From the NCBI GenBank assembly GCA_017935045.1, contig JAGBIJ010000049.1, positions 1 to 60,170 of the forward strand: a stretch of DNA of 60,170 nt, written 5' to 3'. Position 1 is the stretch's first letter. Every line of letters starts with the position of its first letter. Shown piece by piece: positions 23,619-27,950 of this stretch. The notes beneath the pieces were generated by a model. It was not told the origin of the DNA, ran no database searches, and saw only the letters and a list, made by a program, of their open reading frames with translations. The translations under genes were made by a program, and so were the position numbers. The stretch comes from Muribaculaceae bacterium. GTDB lineage: Bacteria; Bacteroidota; Bacteroidia; Bacteroidales; Muribaculaceae.

Positions 23619-23925
23619 CATATCGCTCGCGGAGCCTCGATATGGGCTAAGTTGGCGGGTGCAGACATAATAAGAGCGTTTATCCGACGCTCGTTCTTGG
23701 CTTACAGAAATCTGGCAGTTTCACAATCCAAGTCAAGAATGAGACAACGATAGGCGTCTTTCGGGTATGATATACCTTCATCCCAGGGGTCGGCAAAAGT
23801 CGACTCCGTTGGGGCATATCATACAGCGTGAGACTCCGCGTTGCTCGTTCTACTTGGATGGGCACATGCCAGAGCCTCTGTAAGCGGGACGAGTCAACAG
23901 ATACAGACTCTCACGCTCTTTTTTT
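23619..23925 (+). ncRNA. Long rod-shaped structured RNA, 6S-like or RiPP leader
   Basis: About 300 nt with successive long-range pairings that stack into one rod: AAGAGCGT (23672-23679) with ACGCTCTT (23913-23920); CTCGTTC (about 23690) with GGACGAG (about 23886); GCTTACAG with CTGTAAGC; CTGGCA with TGCCAG; CCAAGT with ACTTGG; CAACG with CGTTG; and an apical GTATGATAT (23765-23773) with ATATCATAC (23816-23824) enclosing GGGGTCG/CGACTCC. Upstream CATATCG/CGATATG forms a separate hairpin. The closing stem is followed by seven T, as in an intrinsic terminator. The rod with bulges recalls 6S RNA, but it is longer than usual; the alternative is an attenuating leader of the RiPP operon 48 nt downstream, for which no other promoter was seen. 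Confidence 0.6.
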
Positions 23926-23972: not shown

Positions 23973-24230
23973 ATGAAACAAGACAAGAAAGAAGAGCTTC
24001 AGTCACGCCGTCAGTTCTTCAAGAAAGCCGCCAAGTCAGCGCTGCCGATCCTCGGTTTGGCAGTTTTAGCCAGTAATCCGCTGATCAGTAAAGCAACAAC
24101 AGCAATGGGATGCAGAATAGACGCATGTACCGGCACATGCACCGGTAGTTGTTCTGGTACCTGTAGCAGTTGTTCTGCAGGTTGTTCCCGCTCTTGCATG
24201 AGCGGATGCTATGGCAAAAATCGATATTAA
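23973..24230 (+). CDS. CXXX-repeat RiPP precursor with Tat signal leader
   Basis: An 85-aa precursor of a ribosomally made, post-translationally modified peptide. The leader carries a textbook twin-arginine motif SRRQFFK (residues 11-17), a moderately hydrophobic stretch (ALPILGLAVLASNPLI) and a likely cleavage site after ISKA (residue 41), so it should be exported folded by the Tat pathway. The core has nine cysteines at 47, 52, 56, 60, 64, 67, 71, 75 and 79, mostly spaced by four (C-T-G-T, C-T-G-S, C-S-G-T and so on), with small Ser, Thr and Gly between. This spacing marks the target of the CXXX-repeat radical SAM maturase family. The next genes encode that maturase and TatA/TatC. The modification (probably thioether links from Cys) is inferred. 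Confidence 0.88.
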   Translation: MKQDKKEELQSRRQFFKKAAKSALPILGLAVLASNPLISKATTAMGCRIDACTGTCTGSCSGTCSSCSAGCSRSCMSGCYGKNRY

Positions 24231-24250
24231 TTGGGTATAAGTATGTGCAA

Positions 24251-24298
24251 ATTCTATGGTGGCTGAGTTGACTTGTCTTCTTAAAGCCACCATAGAAT
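24251..24298 (+). promoter_or_regulatory. 14-bp hairpin between precursor and maturase
   Basis: A perfect 14-bp inverted repeat (24251-24264 with 24285-24298) and a 20-nt loop lie in the 93-nt gap after the precursor gene. No T-run follows. It probably acts as a partial terminator or mRNA stabiliser that yields more precursor than enzyme. Confidence 0.65.
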
Positions 24299-24323
24299 AG
24301 AGCTTCTTAGATAGTCGAATCTC

Positions 24324-25547
24324 ATGGATGGGATTAAAAGCAATAAAGTTATTTGGAAAGATGGAACGGCGAAGAACATTACGTTCATCGTTACGAAAGA
24401 TTGCCAGCTTGCATGCAAATACTGCTATTTAGTCGGGAAGAACGAAAAGGAACGTATGTCATGGCAGGTTGCAAAATCTGCCATAGACTATATTCTTGAC
24501 CATAAAAGTGATTTTAATGAGGAGTCAGTCATTTGGGATTTTATCGGTGGAGAACCTTTTTTGGAGATTGACCTGATAGACCAAATCTGTGATTATATAA
24601 AGAAGGAACTATATATCCGTGGTCATCATTGGTTTAATTCATATCGGTTCAATTTTTCCACAAACGGCATCAACTACGATTCCGAAAAGGTACAACAATT
24701 TATAGCCAAAAACCGCGAACATCTGTCAATCGGCATAACCATAGACGGCACCAGACGCAAGCACGATCTGAACCGAATATGGAAAGGCGACGGACCGGAA
24801 AAGGGCTCGTATGATGACGTTGTGCGCAATATTCCTCTGTGGCTTAAGCAATTCCCGCACGGTGGAACGAAAGTGACCATCAGCTCGGCAGATATTCCTT
24901 ATATAAAGGAAAGCGTGCTACATCTCTATTCCCTCGGCATACACGAAGTGAATATCAACGCAGTGTTTGAGGATGTGTGGAAAGAAGGCGATGACGATCT
25001 GTTTGAACAGCAGCTTACGGAACTTGCCGACGCTATAATAGACGGCGGATGGTACGAGGATTATGCTTGCTCTTTTTACTCTGAAAATATAGGCAAACCG
25101 TTGGACCCGGTATATGACAATACCAACTGGTGCGGCGCCGGACGTATGCTGGCTGTTGACGCAGCCGGGAATTTCTATCCCTGCACCCGATTTGCAGCCT
25201 ATTCGCTGAGAAGCAAGAAGCCCCTGATTATCGGTAATGTGCATGACGGCATAGACCGGGATAAGTTGCGCCCGTTTCTGACTCTTGACCGCACCACTCA
25301 ATCGCCGCAGAACTGTATCGACTGCGAGGTGGCAAGCGGATGCGCATGGTGTCAGGGAGAAAACTATGACGCAGCCGAATCTCCGACCATCTATCAGCGT
25401 GCCACAGCTATATGCAAGATGCACAAGGCTCGCGTCCGCGCCAACAACTACTACTGGAACAAGCTGTTTCGCAAGCTGGAGCTGGAAGGCAGACGCGAGG
25501 AATACGAAGCAAACAGGAAAACGTCAAACCCGATATTGCCATGCTGA
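24324..25547 (+). CDS. Radical SAM/SPASM peptide maturase, CXXX-repeat target family
   Basis: A 407-aa radical SAM enzyme. The SAM-cleaving [4Fe-4S] cluster is bound by C27, C31 and C34 (CQLACKYC) near the N-terminus; a Gly-rich IGGEPFLE follows. The C-terminal SPASM domain has cysteines at 270, 287, 331, 334, 340 and 343 (WCGAGRM, YPCTRF, CIDCEVASGCAWC) for auxiliary clusters. Such enzymes make carbon-sulfur bonds at cysteines of peptide substrates; the neighbouring Cys-rich precursor is the obvious target. An LNRIWKG...GSYDDVVRNI region resembles the (beta/alpha) barrel end. Its stop overlaps the next gene by 7 nt. Confidence 0.9.
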   Translation: MDGIKSNKVIWKDGTAKNITFIVTKDCQLACKYCYLVGKNEKERMSWQVAKSAIDYILDHKSDFNEESVIWDFIGGEPFLEIDLIDQICDYIKKELYIRGHHWFNSYRFNFSTNGINYDSEKVQQFIAKNREHLSIGITIDGTRRKHDLNRIWKGDGPEKGSYDDVVRNIPLWLKQFPHGGTKVTISSADIPYIKESVLHLYSLGIHEVNINAVFEDVWKEGDDDLFEQQLTELADAIIDGGWYEDYACSFYSENIGKPLDPVYDNTNWCGAGRMLAVDAAGNFYPCTRFAAYSLRSKKPLIIGNVHDGIDRDKLRPFLTLDRTTQSPQNCIDCEVASGCAWCQGENYDAAESPTIYQRATAICKMHKARVRANNYYWNKLFRKLELEGRREEYEANRKTSNPILPC

Positions 25548-26467
25548 AATATCTGATAGTGATGCTTGACCGGGCATCGGTGCCTTTCTGCCACCATGAA
25601 CCGGCTGAAAAGAATGAAGGGCTGATTAGCGCCGCTGACCTCAAGAACGCGATACGCTTCGGAATGAAAGAGAATCTGGTCATACAATTCGTTTATCCCG
25701 ACCGCGCGATTCCGGCAGAGCTGGAAAATATAATCGAAACCATCGACCATGTAAAAATCAAGCCCTACCCTTCCGGCAAGGATGACGTGCTTGTCGCAGA
25801 CATTGGGGCAATTCCGCAAAAGGCTGAGAACGAGACACTGGTCATCCGCGCTTCTATACAAGAGCTTGCGGAAAAGGTAAGCGAAGTAGAGAACGCGATT
25901 TACCGCTTCAAGCGTGTGAACATCATACTCAAAGAGCCTGATTCTATAAGCGAAGAAGATGCCGGGGCTTACAAGTTGTTTCTTGACCGTCTTACATATT
26001 ATATAGCCGGGCAGACAGCAAGCGGCAAAGAGCTGCCGCAGTTCAATCTCCTCACAGATCGCATTTTGCTCGACAAGATGAATAATTGCGGCGCTGGCGA
26101 CGAGTCTATTACCATCGCTCCTGACGGAAAGATGTATGTCTGCCCCGCCTTTTATTATGACGGCGACGCGCCTGTGGAGTGGGATAAAGAGGAAGGCTTG
26201 CAACTCCCCAACGCGCAGCTTTATCGGCTGGACCACGCCCCTATATGCCGCGCTTGCGATGCTTTCCAGTGTCATCGCTGCGTATGGCTCAATAGGAGGC
26301 GTACGCTTGAGGTCAATACCCCCGGACACACACAATGCATACTTTCCCACCATGAACGCAATGCCTCACGCAATCTGCTCGGCAGACTCCGCGAAGCCGG
26401 CATAGCCGCCACCCTCAAAGATATACCTGAATTAGATTACCTCGACCCATTTGAAATAGTCAAATAA
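25541..26467 (+). CDS. CXXX-repeat peptide maturase partner with SPASM-type cysteines
   Basis: A 308-aa protein starting at ATG 25541 inside the end of the radical SAM gene. There is no CX3CX2C motif, so it cannot be a radical SAM enzyme itself. The C-terminal part nonetheless repeats the SPASM layout of its neighbour: C183 (NNCGAGDESITIAPDGKMY), C201 (VCPAFYY), then C236, C239, C244 and C247 (CRACDAFQCHRC). It thus looks like a catalytically inactive relative that may bind Fe-S clusters, the precursor, or both, forming a complex with the maturase. The N-terminal 170 residues are not recognised beyond matching the general CXXX-repeat maturase family. Confidence 0.78.
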   Translation: MLKYLIVMLDRASVPFCHHEPAEKNEGLISAADLKNAIRFGMKENLVIQFVYPDRAIPAELENIIETIDHVKIKPYPSGKDDVLVADIGAIPQKAENETLVIRASIQELAEKVSEVENAIYRFKRVNIILKEPDSISEEDAGAYKLFLDRLTYYIAGQTASGKELPQFNLLTDRILLDKMNNCGAGDESITIAPDGKMYVCPAFYYDGDAPVEWDKEEGLQLPNAQLYRLDHAPICRACDAFQCHRCVWLNRRRTLEVNTPGHTQCILSHHERNASRNLLGRLREAGIAATLKDIPELDYLDPFEIVK

Positions 26468-26742
26468 TGAAGAAAGAAATAGGAACGGTCAGCGCCGACG
26501 AGCGCGACGAGATACAGAAGCTGTTTGAGCGCCGCAACGGACTCAACGAGCTGGCGAAGATACTCACGCCTTCGGATGAAGAGCTGTATGAGAAGTTAGT
26601 GAAGGACCTGGGCGAAACTTCGGTAAAGTTTCAGAACTGGTGGGACCGCATGGCTGCAAACTACAGCTGGGAAGGCAGCGAGGACGGACATTGGGAGATA
26701 AATTTCGATACATGTGCCATTTACTTAGTGACTGAAAAATGA
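26467..26742 (+). CDS. CXXX-repeat peptide modification system small protein
   Basis: A soluble 91-aa protein of the small accessory family found in CXXX-repeat RiPP loci. It has a charged helical first half ([20 protein letters not shown]) and a C-terminal [15 protein letters not shown] segment. A role in binding or presenting the precursor is plausible but not shown. Its ATG shares one base with the upstream stop (TAATG), and its own stop overlaps tatA (ATGA), so translation of the whole set is coupled. Confidence 0.7.
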
Positions 26743-27014
26743 TAATCTGCATGATAGGCGCGACGGAGATAATCCTGATAGGCGCGGTGGTTTTGCTCAT
26801 CTTCGGCGGCAAGAAGCTGCCGGAGATGATGCGCGGCATGGGCAAGGGCGTGAAGAGCTTCAAAGAGGGGATGAACGAGCCTACCGAGGAAGAAATAAAC
26901 CGGCGCGTGGAGGAGGAGATACAACGCCGTGCCGACGAACGGACTGCCGCCATGGTGGCCGCGCATGACGACACCGCGAAGTCTGAGGAAAATAACGACG
27001 AACGCAGTGAGTGA
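26739..27014 (+). CDS. tatA: Twin-arginine translocase subunit TatA
   Basis: A 91-aa TatA/E-type protein. An N-terminal membrane helix ([18 protein letters not shown]) is followed by the hinge [15 protein letters not shown] and an amphipathic helix, then a charged tail. In the Tat system TatA oligomers form the path for folded proteins. Translation may start at ATG 26739 or at ATG 26751. It overlaps the upstream RiPP gene by 4 nt and the tatC start by 8 nt. No TatB is present, as expected for minimal TatAC systems. Confidence 0.92.
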
Positions 27015-27822
27015 GGATGAAAACAGCGGATTGCTGTCTTTCGGAGGGCACCTCGAGGTTCTCCGGAAGATGCTGATCCGTATCGTGGCGCTCATTATAG
27101 CTTTAGCCTGCGTGATATTCTGTTTCAAGGACGAGACATTTCATCTGCTGCTCGCGCCCAAAAGCTCTGATTTCTGTACCTTTACGCTACTGGAACGACT
27201 GCTGCGCTCCCTGGGTATTCCGTTTTCGATGGGAAGCTACGACGTGCCGCTGATCAGTACCGAGCTCTCCTCGCAGTTTATGAACCATATCACTGTTTCG
27301 TGTATTCTGGCGTTGCTCCTTGCGTCGCCATACATACTGTGCGAGCTTTTCCGATTCATATCTCCGGCGCTGTATGAGAATGAAAAACGATATTCATATA
27401 TCGTGGCGGCCATAGTCTACACTCTTTTCCTTCTGGGCCTGCTGATGAGCTATTTTATCCTGTTCCCGATTTCGTTCCGCTTTTTGGCTACCTATCAGGT
27501 GGACGGAAGTATCAGCAGCATGATTACACTCGACTCCTATATCTCTACGTTCGCTATGCTGACTTTTATGATGGGGGTGGTATTCCAGCTTCCGGTCATA
27601 GTGTACATTCTGGGCAAAATGGGAATCATAGACTCGGAGCTGATGGTAAAATACCGGCCATACGCGCTTGTTATAATCATGGTAGTCGCAGCCATCATCA
27701 CGCCGCCGGATCTGTTTACACTTGTGCTGGTAACGATACCTATATACGGTCTGTATGAAGTCGGCATACTTGTACTCAGACGCCAGCAGCGCAAACACCT
27801 GATTTCAGACAGCAAAGGCTAA
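27007..27822 (+). CDS. tatC: Twin-arginine translocase subunit TatC
   Basis: A polytopic inner-membrane protein of about 271 aa starting at GTG 27007, inside the end of tatA. It has the six-helix TatC pattern. Recognisable elements are [15 protein letters not shown] at the N-terminus (signal-recognition region), [13 protein letters not shown] before the third helix, and the [11 protein letters not shown] segment near the end. TatC recognises the twin-arginine motif; the most obvious substrate nearby is the RiPP precursor. Downstream is a bidirectional terminator. Confidence 0.93.
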
Positions 27823-27927: not shown

Positions 27928-27950
27928 AAGCGCCTTACGGCGCTTCTTTT
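27928..27950. terminator. Bidirectional terminator
   Basis: AAGCGCC-TTAC-GGCGCTT with an A-run before and T-run after serves tatC on the plus strand and the small lipoprotein on the minus strand. Confidence 0.85.

Follow-up and report, generated by a model that had tools for sequence, protein, structure and literature searches.

The DNA examined here, a stretch of 60,170 nucleotides from a Muribaculaceae bacterium (GenBank assembly GCA_017935045.1, contig JAGBIJ010000049.1, positions 1 to 60,170), is called the window below. It carries a predicted operon for a ribosomally synthesized and post-translationally modified peptide (RiPP), in which genes of the twin-arginine translocation (Tat) pathway follow those of the peptide and its putative maturation enzymes. 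Six genes form one tight run on the + strand, from 23973 to 27822:

23973..24230, + strand: precursor gene, 85 amino acids (aa), with a Tat-type leader and a cysteine-repeat core (TIGR04117, 46 bits, E 4e-12, cut-off 50)
24324..25547, + strand: radical S-adenosylmethionine (radical SAM)/SPASM peptide maturase, TIGR04115 (626 bits; CxxxCxxC and SPASM-type cysteines in the sequence)
25541..26467, + strand: SPASM partner without the radical SAM CxxxCxxC (CXXX repeat peptide maturase, TIGR04119; 203 bits; invariant Cys)
26467..26742, + strand: small accessory protein, TIGR04116 (91 bits)
26739..27014, + strand: tatA (tatAE model, 67.9 bits)
27007..27822, + strand: tatC, GTG start, overlapping tatA by 8 nucleotides (nt) (tatC model, 162.1 bits)

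The NCBIfam cut-offs are 350 bits for TIGR04115, 150 for TIGR04119, 50 for both TIGR04116 and TIGR04117, 53.9 for tatAE and 132.7 for tatC. The maturase (626 vs. 350), the partner (203 vs. 150) and the accessory protein (91 vs. 50) lie above them, as do TatA (67.9 vs. 53.9) and TatC (162.1 vs. 132.7), which together correspond to a minimal TatAC translocase. With 46 bits against 50, the precursor is a relative and not a member of TIGR04117. A preliminary description of the sequence had read the region as a six-gene RiPP and TatAC operon, and every open reading frame (ORF) of this operon is present. The starts of the partner and of tatC are our choice, the ORF list beginning these frames upstream, at 25412 and 26929; with the chosen starts, the overlaps are 7 nt (maturase/partner), 1 nt (partner/accessory), 4 nt (accessory/tatA) and 8 nt (tatA/tatC), in agreement with the preliminary description. 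The gap between the precursor and maturase genes is 93 nt.

Relatives were taken from several samples. A maturase search of genome contigs gave 314 relatives, of which the best 80 were kept, nearest first, so that this set is biased; the 67 loci with at least 4 kb of DNA downstream of the maturase are referred to as loci with room. Less biased samples comprise 395 phylum, 198 family and 393 order genomes, the window's own being included in each, and 81 genomes of another family, f19. TIGR04115 is present in 6/395 phylum, 30/198 family and 12/393 order genomes, and in 3/81 genomes of f19. The genomes are mostly drafts (that of the window is 89.9% complete) and many loci derive from gut and rumen samples, according to their records.

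The association of the RiPP genes with tatA and tatC is widespread in these samples. The partner, accessory, tatA and tatC genes were searched for on the maturase strand within 6 kb. Because all four are found there in 57 of the 67 loci with room, the operon arrangement is not a matter of chance; the other 10 have the partner and accessory genes and neither tatA nor tatC. In the family sample, where maturase and tatC positions were paired by hand and genome G559 was settled from its locus, tatC lies within about 5 kb of the radical SAM gene in 27 of the 30 radical SAM-positive genomes, vs. a chance expectation of about 1% per genome; in G410, G436 and G440 it is not near the maturase gene, and each has one TatC elsewhere. 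In the order sample, tatA and tatC come directly after the accessory gene in 8 of the 11 other radical SAM-positive genomes. The idea that tatA and tatC always follow the precursor family is therefore borne out as a common arrangement (57/67, 27/30, 8/11) and not as a universal one.

Tat itself is common in the family, since TatC was found in 170/198 genomes overall. It is present in all 30 radical SAM-positive genomes vs. 140/168 radical SAM-negative ones (Fisher p 0.01, kinship ignored), and within the window's own genus in 5/5 genomes with the maturase vs. 4/11 without (p 0.03). Eleven genomes contain loci without linked tatAC, and TatC was found elsewhere in 10 of them.

Three features of the precursor matter for its possible export:

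24003..24023, + strand: twin-arginine motif SRRQFFK of the leader, residues 11-17 (from the sequence; twin arginine, RR, is found in 150/165 candidates picked without it)
24042..24047, + strand: conserved Leu-Pro of the leader (RR+12/+13), a probable maturase recognition element (L in 130/150, P in 136/150; kept in three f19 precursors devoid of RR)
24111..24209, + strand: core with 9 cysteines, mostly CXXX repeats (from the sequence; a spacing of 4 makes up 86.5% of the cysteine gaps in 150 family members)

Both the SRRQFFK leader and the nine mostly four-spaced cysteines reported in the preliminary description are found at these places, six of the eight cysteine gaps being of exactly 4 residues, one of 5 and one of 3. 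SRRQFFK is followed by the uncharged hydrophobic segment ALPILGLAVLAS, in keeping with the motif of a Tat substrate. A precursor-like ORF lies upstream of the maturase in 74/80 loci; among the six others, the maturase starts less than 600 bases from the locus start in L065, L076, L085 and L099, and not in L115 and L118. When cysteine-repeat ORFs were chosen by cysteine number and spacing alone, RR being ignored, 165 candidates were obtained in 78 of the 80 loci, and RRx[FYVIL] is found in 150 of them. Two of these 150 look spurious (contexts CRRQVGC and DRRWLFI) and one has no cysteine after RR. By eye, the 15 candidates without RR include contig-end cuts (L065, L099), leaderless or broken frames (L051, L057, L105), a leader whose RR stands at another place (L055) and several that do not resemble precursors. 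The contrary outcome that had been named at the outset, relatives with unlinked tatAC and no RR, is not the rule, as 57/67 loci are linked and 150/165 candidates carry RR.

The leader consensus is [S/N/T]RR[E/Q/D]FFKKAAK-x-A-LP, with L at RR+12 in 130/150 precursors and P at RR+13 in 136/150, and 143/150 are uncharged from RR+11 to RR+23. That this would be a Sec signal with an incidental RR is very improbable: hydrophobic cores and AxA-like or lipobox sites do also occur in Sec signals, but RR is found in 150/165 candidates picked blind to it, mostly in an SRRxFFK context, and tatAC is adjacent in most loci.

In the 150 RR precursors, 2095 cysteine gaps are of exactly 4 residues, that is 86.5% of all gaps, and one ORF contains up to 62 cysteines. 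The residues between the cysteines are mostly S, T, G, K and N, and an Asp/Glu acceptor pattern is absent. Only one of eight other precursors scanned (L163) passes TIGR04117, and the precursor of L220, an operon considered below, scores 33.4 vs. the TIGR04118 cut-off of 35. A lipobox followed by at least two acidic residues at +2 to +6 is found in 21/150 precursors, from 20 loci, and 11 of these have C-x-[KR]-[DE]2. These 11 are close to the export optimum of surface lipoproteins in Capnocytophaga canimorsus, C-X-K-(D/E)2-X as stated in the available part of PMC5080379, and all 21 can be likened to the surface lipoproteins of Bacteroidota; unlike them, the window's own precursor shows neither a lipobox nor a lipoprotein export signal on inspection of its sequence. 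The window's genome has a second RiPP locus, on contig C27; of its three precursors, one carries a lipobox by eye. As a separate observation, contig C118 of genome G346 (L181) contains an ORF with repeated MNCS/ASCS units; the part of the contig that was retrieved shows no maturase.

RiPPs usually leave the cell through ATP-binding cassette (ABC) exporters, and a few relatives of the operon carry an ABC exporter gene. In three genomes of f19 (L165, L166 and L167) the order is precursor, maturase, partner and ABC exporter, with tatAC absent from the operon; TIGR04116 was not found in these three genomes, one of which is 77% complete, and each has a single TatC, on another contig. In L220 (group f92) the precursor comes first, then the ABC exporter, a subtilase, a maturase-partner fusion and the accessory protein, and the only TatC of the genome is again on another contig. 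RR is missing from all four precursors. ABC genes were searched for with phmmer, using three of the four ABC proteins against ORFs of 200 aa or more at E up to 1e-15, in 103 loci made up of the 80 maturase relatives plus 12 and 11 further ones, some of which duplicate an operon and not every one of which was verified to have an RR precursor. An ABC gene on the same strand within 1.2 kb of the maturase occurs in exactly the four non-RR loci and in none of the other 99; five other loci have an ABC gene at 3.7-5.2 kb.

The f19 leaders, SRELLHRVSRKTLP, ERERLHRMARKTLP and AKGLMLRMYKKTLP, align in register with RREFFKKAAKxALP, without any shift; RR is replaced by SR, ER or AK and Leu-Pro is retained. 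The leader of L220 does not match the register of the Tat leaders. The covariation of leader and exporter is our strongest argument for RR as a mark of Tat export and for a role of the remaining leader in maturation. The proposal of a Tat signal that is at the same time the RiPP leader is supported at the level of sequence, because the segment after RR is conserved far beyond the Tat motif and is kept in register where RR is gone, as seen in the three non-RR relatives with an ABC exporter gene.

The same distribution bears on the accessory protein. A role of TIGR04116 as a Tat proofreading chaperone was considered and rejected: the protein was not found in the three f19 genomes but is present in L220, which is of the ABC type and has no RR. 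Judged by where it occurs, TIGR04116 is no Tat factor. In L220, the maturase-partner fusion is 721 aa long, and a TonB-receptor-like and a lipoprotein-like gene (both by eye) follow the operon.

The TatC proteins of these operons can also be compared with each other. A tree was made of 104 TatC sequences, 68 of them labelled RiPP-linked, meaning that they were found in an operon locus. A single clade, with support 100/97, gathers 64 of these 68, and the labels need 3 changes on the tree vs. about 30 when shuffled. The clade also holds one TatC (L159) that belongs to the same genome as L115, an operon without tatAC. Two TatC were found in the window's draft genome, both RiPP-linked. By match count, there is no other TatC in 9/27 linked family genomes and in 3/8 linked order genomes; a housekeeping TatC may have been missed in these drafts. 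Elsewhere, in the same-genus loci L121, L122 and L134, tatA-tatC have as neighbor a gene that by eye resembles those of aldo-keto reductases; a leader of the twin-arginine, lipoprotein-like type can be seen in L121, and the TatC of these three belong to the group nearest the RiPP-linked clade.

These data allow another reading to be weighed, namely that a general cellular tatAC came to adjoin the RiPP operon and that the peptide exits otherwise. Such an origin would account for the 10/67 operons without tatAC and for the fact that tatAC adjoins other likely Tat substrates in kin, and a linked TatC that is the sole one found (9/27 family and 3/8 order genomes) may serve the whole cell. However, the RiPP-linked TatC largely form a separate lineage, further TatC are found by match count in 18/27 linked family genomes, RR is carried by the precursors themselves, and leader and exporter change together. 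We regard this reading as unlikely.

We favor a RiPP operon that includes a minimal Tat translocase of its own and whose peptide would be modified in the cytoplasm and then exported by TatAC, and put the probability of this reading at roughly 0.75. As far as sequences can tell, the comparison supports it through the common gene neighborhood, the conservation of RR, the separate TatC lineage and the ABC gene that replaces tatAC where RR is missing. Several observations weigh against it. Adjacent tatAC is lacking in 10/67 loci, in 3/30 family genomes and in the groups f114 and f28. In f28 (L163, L164) and f114 (L217, L218), RR precursors occur with no adjacent tatAC and an unlinked TatC, for which reason a strict co-occurrence of radical SAM and linked tatAC was rejected; since such systems exist, a private Tat is common and not required. 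No TatC was found in the radical SAM-positive genome of L065, where the contig ends within the precursor. In kin, tatAC also adjoins an aldo-keto reductase gene, an RR leader being visible in L121, so that the pairing is not unique to RiPPs. L098 and the trio L097/L109/L114, four RiPP-linked TatC in all, are not part of the main clade. The Tat-signal model TIGR01409 gave one match in the whole window genome (E 1.27, under cut-off, located elsewhere) and missed the RR precursors, so the lack of a match above cut-off does not show that other Tat substrates are absent. The f19 leaders are also uncharged at +11 to +23, merely less hydrophobic than RR leaders. Finally, the exporter swap amounts to two events and not four, as three of the ABC-type genomes are related: the ABC label takes two changes on a tree of 58 selected maturase rows, with L220 on a long branch of unsure placement and the root, hence the direction, left open.

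The Tat-linked operon is a variant of an already catalogued and uncharacterised kind of RiPP. Like the CXXX-repeat RiPP system of NCBIfam (TIGR04114-TIGR04119), it has a maturase, partner and accessory protein that pass the cut-offs and a Cys-Xaa-Xaa-Xaa core; in contrast, Tat appears in no model name of that system, and the window's tatA and tatC match general Tat models only. The statement that no product of this type has been characterised stands insofar as no literature on the system or on its link with Tat was found, and has to be amended insofar as the core was already catalogued in NCBIfam as a predicted RiPP system. A full-text search, outside which most subscription papers fall, gave no paper with the family accessions or with “CXXX repeat,” and no natural Tat-exported RiPP appears among the matches listed, as judged from titles and the start of abstracts. 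By term search, Tat and twin-arginine are absent from the main text of a Bacteroidales RiPP survey (PMC10352776), and they are absent from a review (PMC8326336). Tat has been the subject of speculation for the display of engineered lanthipeptides (PMC5686179, in its accessible part).

Two known systems are instructive. The PapA/PapB ranthipeptides resemble the present one in that NF047865 (PapB) is the maturase's second-best NCBIfam match (E 2e-57) and that the four-residue cysteine period recalls CX3D, as described in the portion of PMC9413430 that was accessible. However, the maturase scores 195 bits vs. an NF047865 cut-off of 340, and the system has no Asp/Glu acceptors and has an extra SPASM partner, an accessory protein and tatAC. 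In its chemistry, PapB is the nearest by sequence; as its cut-off is missed and the core is without the Asp/Glu acceptors of PapA, its type of link is only a candidate here. NapA/NapD stands for Tat-exported cofactor proteins with leader-binding chaperones. There, according to the part of PMC3712460 at hand, the Tat signal overlaps the site of a maturation factor, and maturation in the cytoplasm precedes export; it offers a precedent for two recognition sites that overlap within one twin-arginine signal. By contrast, the window's substrate is a short peptide and not a redox enzyme, no NapD-like protein was identified, and the accessory protein also occurs in an ABC-type locus.

A cysteine at each fourth residue, with up to 62 in one ORF, could also suggest a metal- or Fe-S-binding CXXX protein and not a cross-linked RiPP. 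Its cytoplasmic loading would need Tat, which is known for cofactor-loaded proteins (PMC3712460, same part), and the radical SAM-like pair would serve cluster assembly or another modification. The absence of acceptors like those in the CX3D of PapA (PMC9413430, same portion), the residues between cysteines being mostly S, T, G, K and N, goes in the same direction. On the other hand, after its own model, the best NCBIfam matches of the maturase are peptide maturases (PapB, CcpM, SCIFF). Moreover, four relatives have an ABC exporter, and one of them a subtilase too, as is often the case in RiPP clusters. A metal protein appears rather doubtful; it is compatible with Tat export and overlaps the favored explanation at that step.

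For the RiPP with its own Tat translocase, the following course may be proposed. One leader stretch would carry two signals, the twin arginine and hydrophobic region for Tat and the segment ending in Leu-Pro for the maturation enzymes. The radical SAM/SPASM enzyme, helped by the SPASM partner and the accessory protein, would modify the CXXX core in the reducing cytoplasm, the modification being most likely cysteine thioether links. The compact finished peptide would then pass through TatAC across the inner membrane, and the window's precursor would be freed by signal peptidase I; in other members, lipoprotein processing may free or anchor the peptide, sometimes with a surface-export tag. We infer Tat translocation, the order of events, the thioether chemistry, recognition of the leader by the maturase and its cleavage. 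A broader proposal, toward which we lean slightly, is that of an exporter-interchangeable RiPP family. The maturase segment of the leader would be fixed and the tag would switch between twin-arginine, with a mostly dedicated and co-inherited TatAC, and non-RR, with ABC; Tat would act as a quality gate for the cross-linked product, and some members would be surface-displayed lipidated RiPPs.

Two further elements belong to the operon or its surroundings:

24251..24298, + strand: stem-loop in the gap that separates the precursor gene from the maturase gene (fold of 24231-24326: -30 kcal/mol, z -3.7, more stable than any shuffle)
27928..27945, + strand: hairpin resembling a terminator, about 105 nt beyond tatC (by consensus match alone; 7 sites of this kind in the region vs. 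3.9 expected)

Stable folds recur between precursor and maturase genes, with z < -2 in 20/26 gaps of 40-300 bases and a median of -3.4 (40 shuffles each, the window's gap included), and the seven gap hairpins that were printed differ in sequence. This stem-loop may stabilise the mRNA and thereby raise the precursor over the enzyme. It was not called a terminator, a T-run being absent in the window, and upstream of the operon, matches to a sigma-70-type promoter are about as many as in shuffled sequence (7 vs. 6.1 expected). Upstream of the precursor, at 23765-23824 of the window, the inverted arms GTATGATAT...ATATCATAC form a possible 5' leader hairpin, by eye.

Around the 80 loci, the 25 largest clusters of ORFs of at least 90 aa were inspected. 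Those that occur in over 6 loci consist of operon genes or of apparently overlapping frames of the opposite strand, and on these 25 clusters an immunity gene, a protease or a regulator as a constant part of the operon was rejected. An exported protein with SH3-like repeats (by eye) adjoins the operon in a few loci, L049 and L116 among them, and falls into two clusters that count five loci each. In L163 and L164 (f28), the SPASM partner carries the TIGR04116 accessory protein as a C-terminal fusion, and the precursors have 46 and 36 cysteines. In L102 and L044, one maturase goes with arrays of at least six different precursor genes, some of which lie between the partner and accessory genes in L102.

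If the favored explanation is true, one line of RiPPs has a Tat translocase of its own; Tat can then carry a modified natural product and may check its folding or maturation. A family in which nature has exchanged Tat for ABC or the reverse would make the parts of the leader that serve the maturase and those that serve the exporter directly testable. Finally, the lipoprotein and surface-export tags point to possible lipid-anchored, surface-displayed modified peptides in Bacteroidales.

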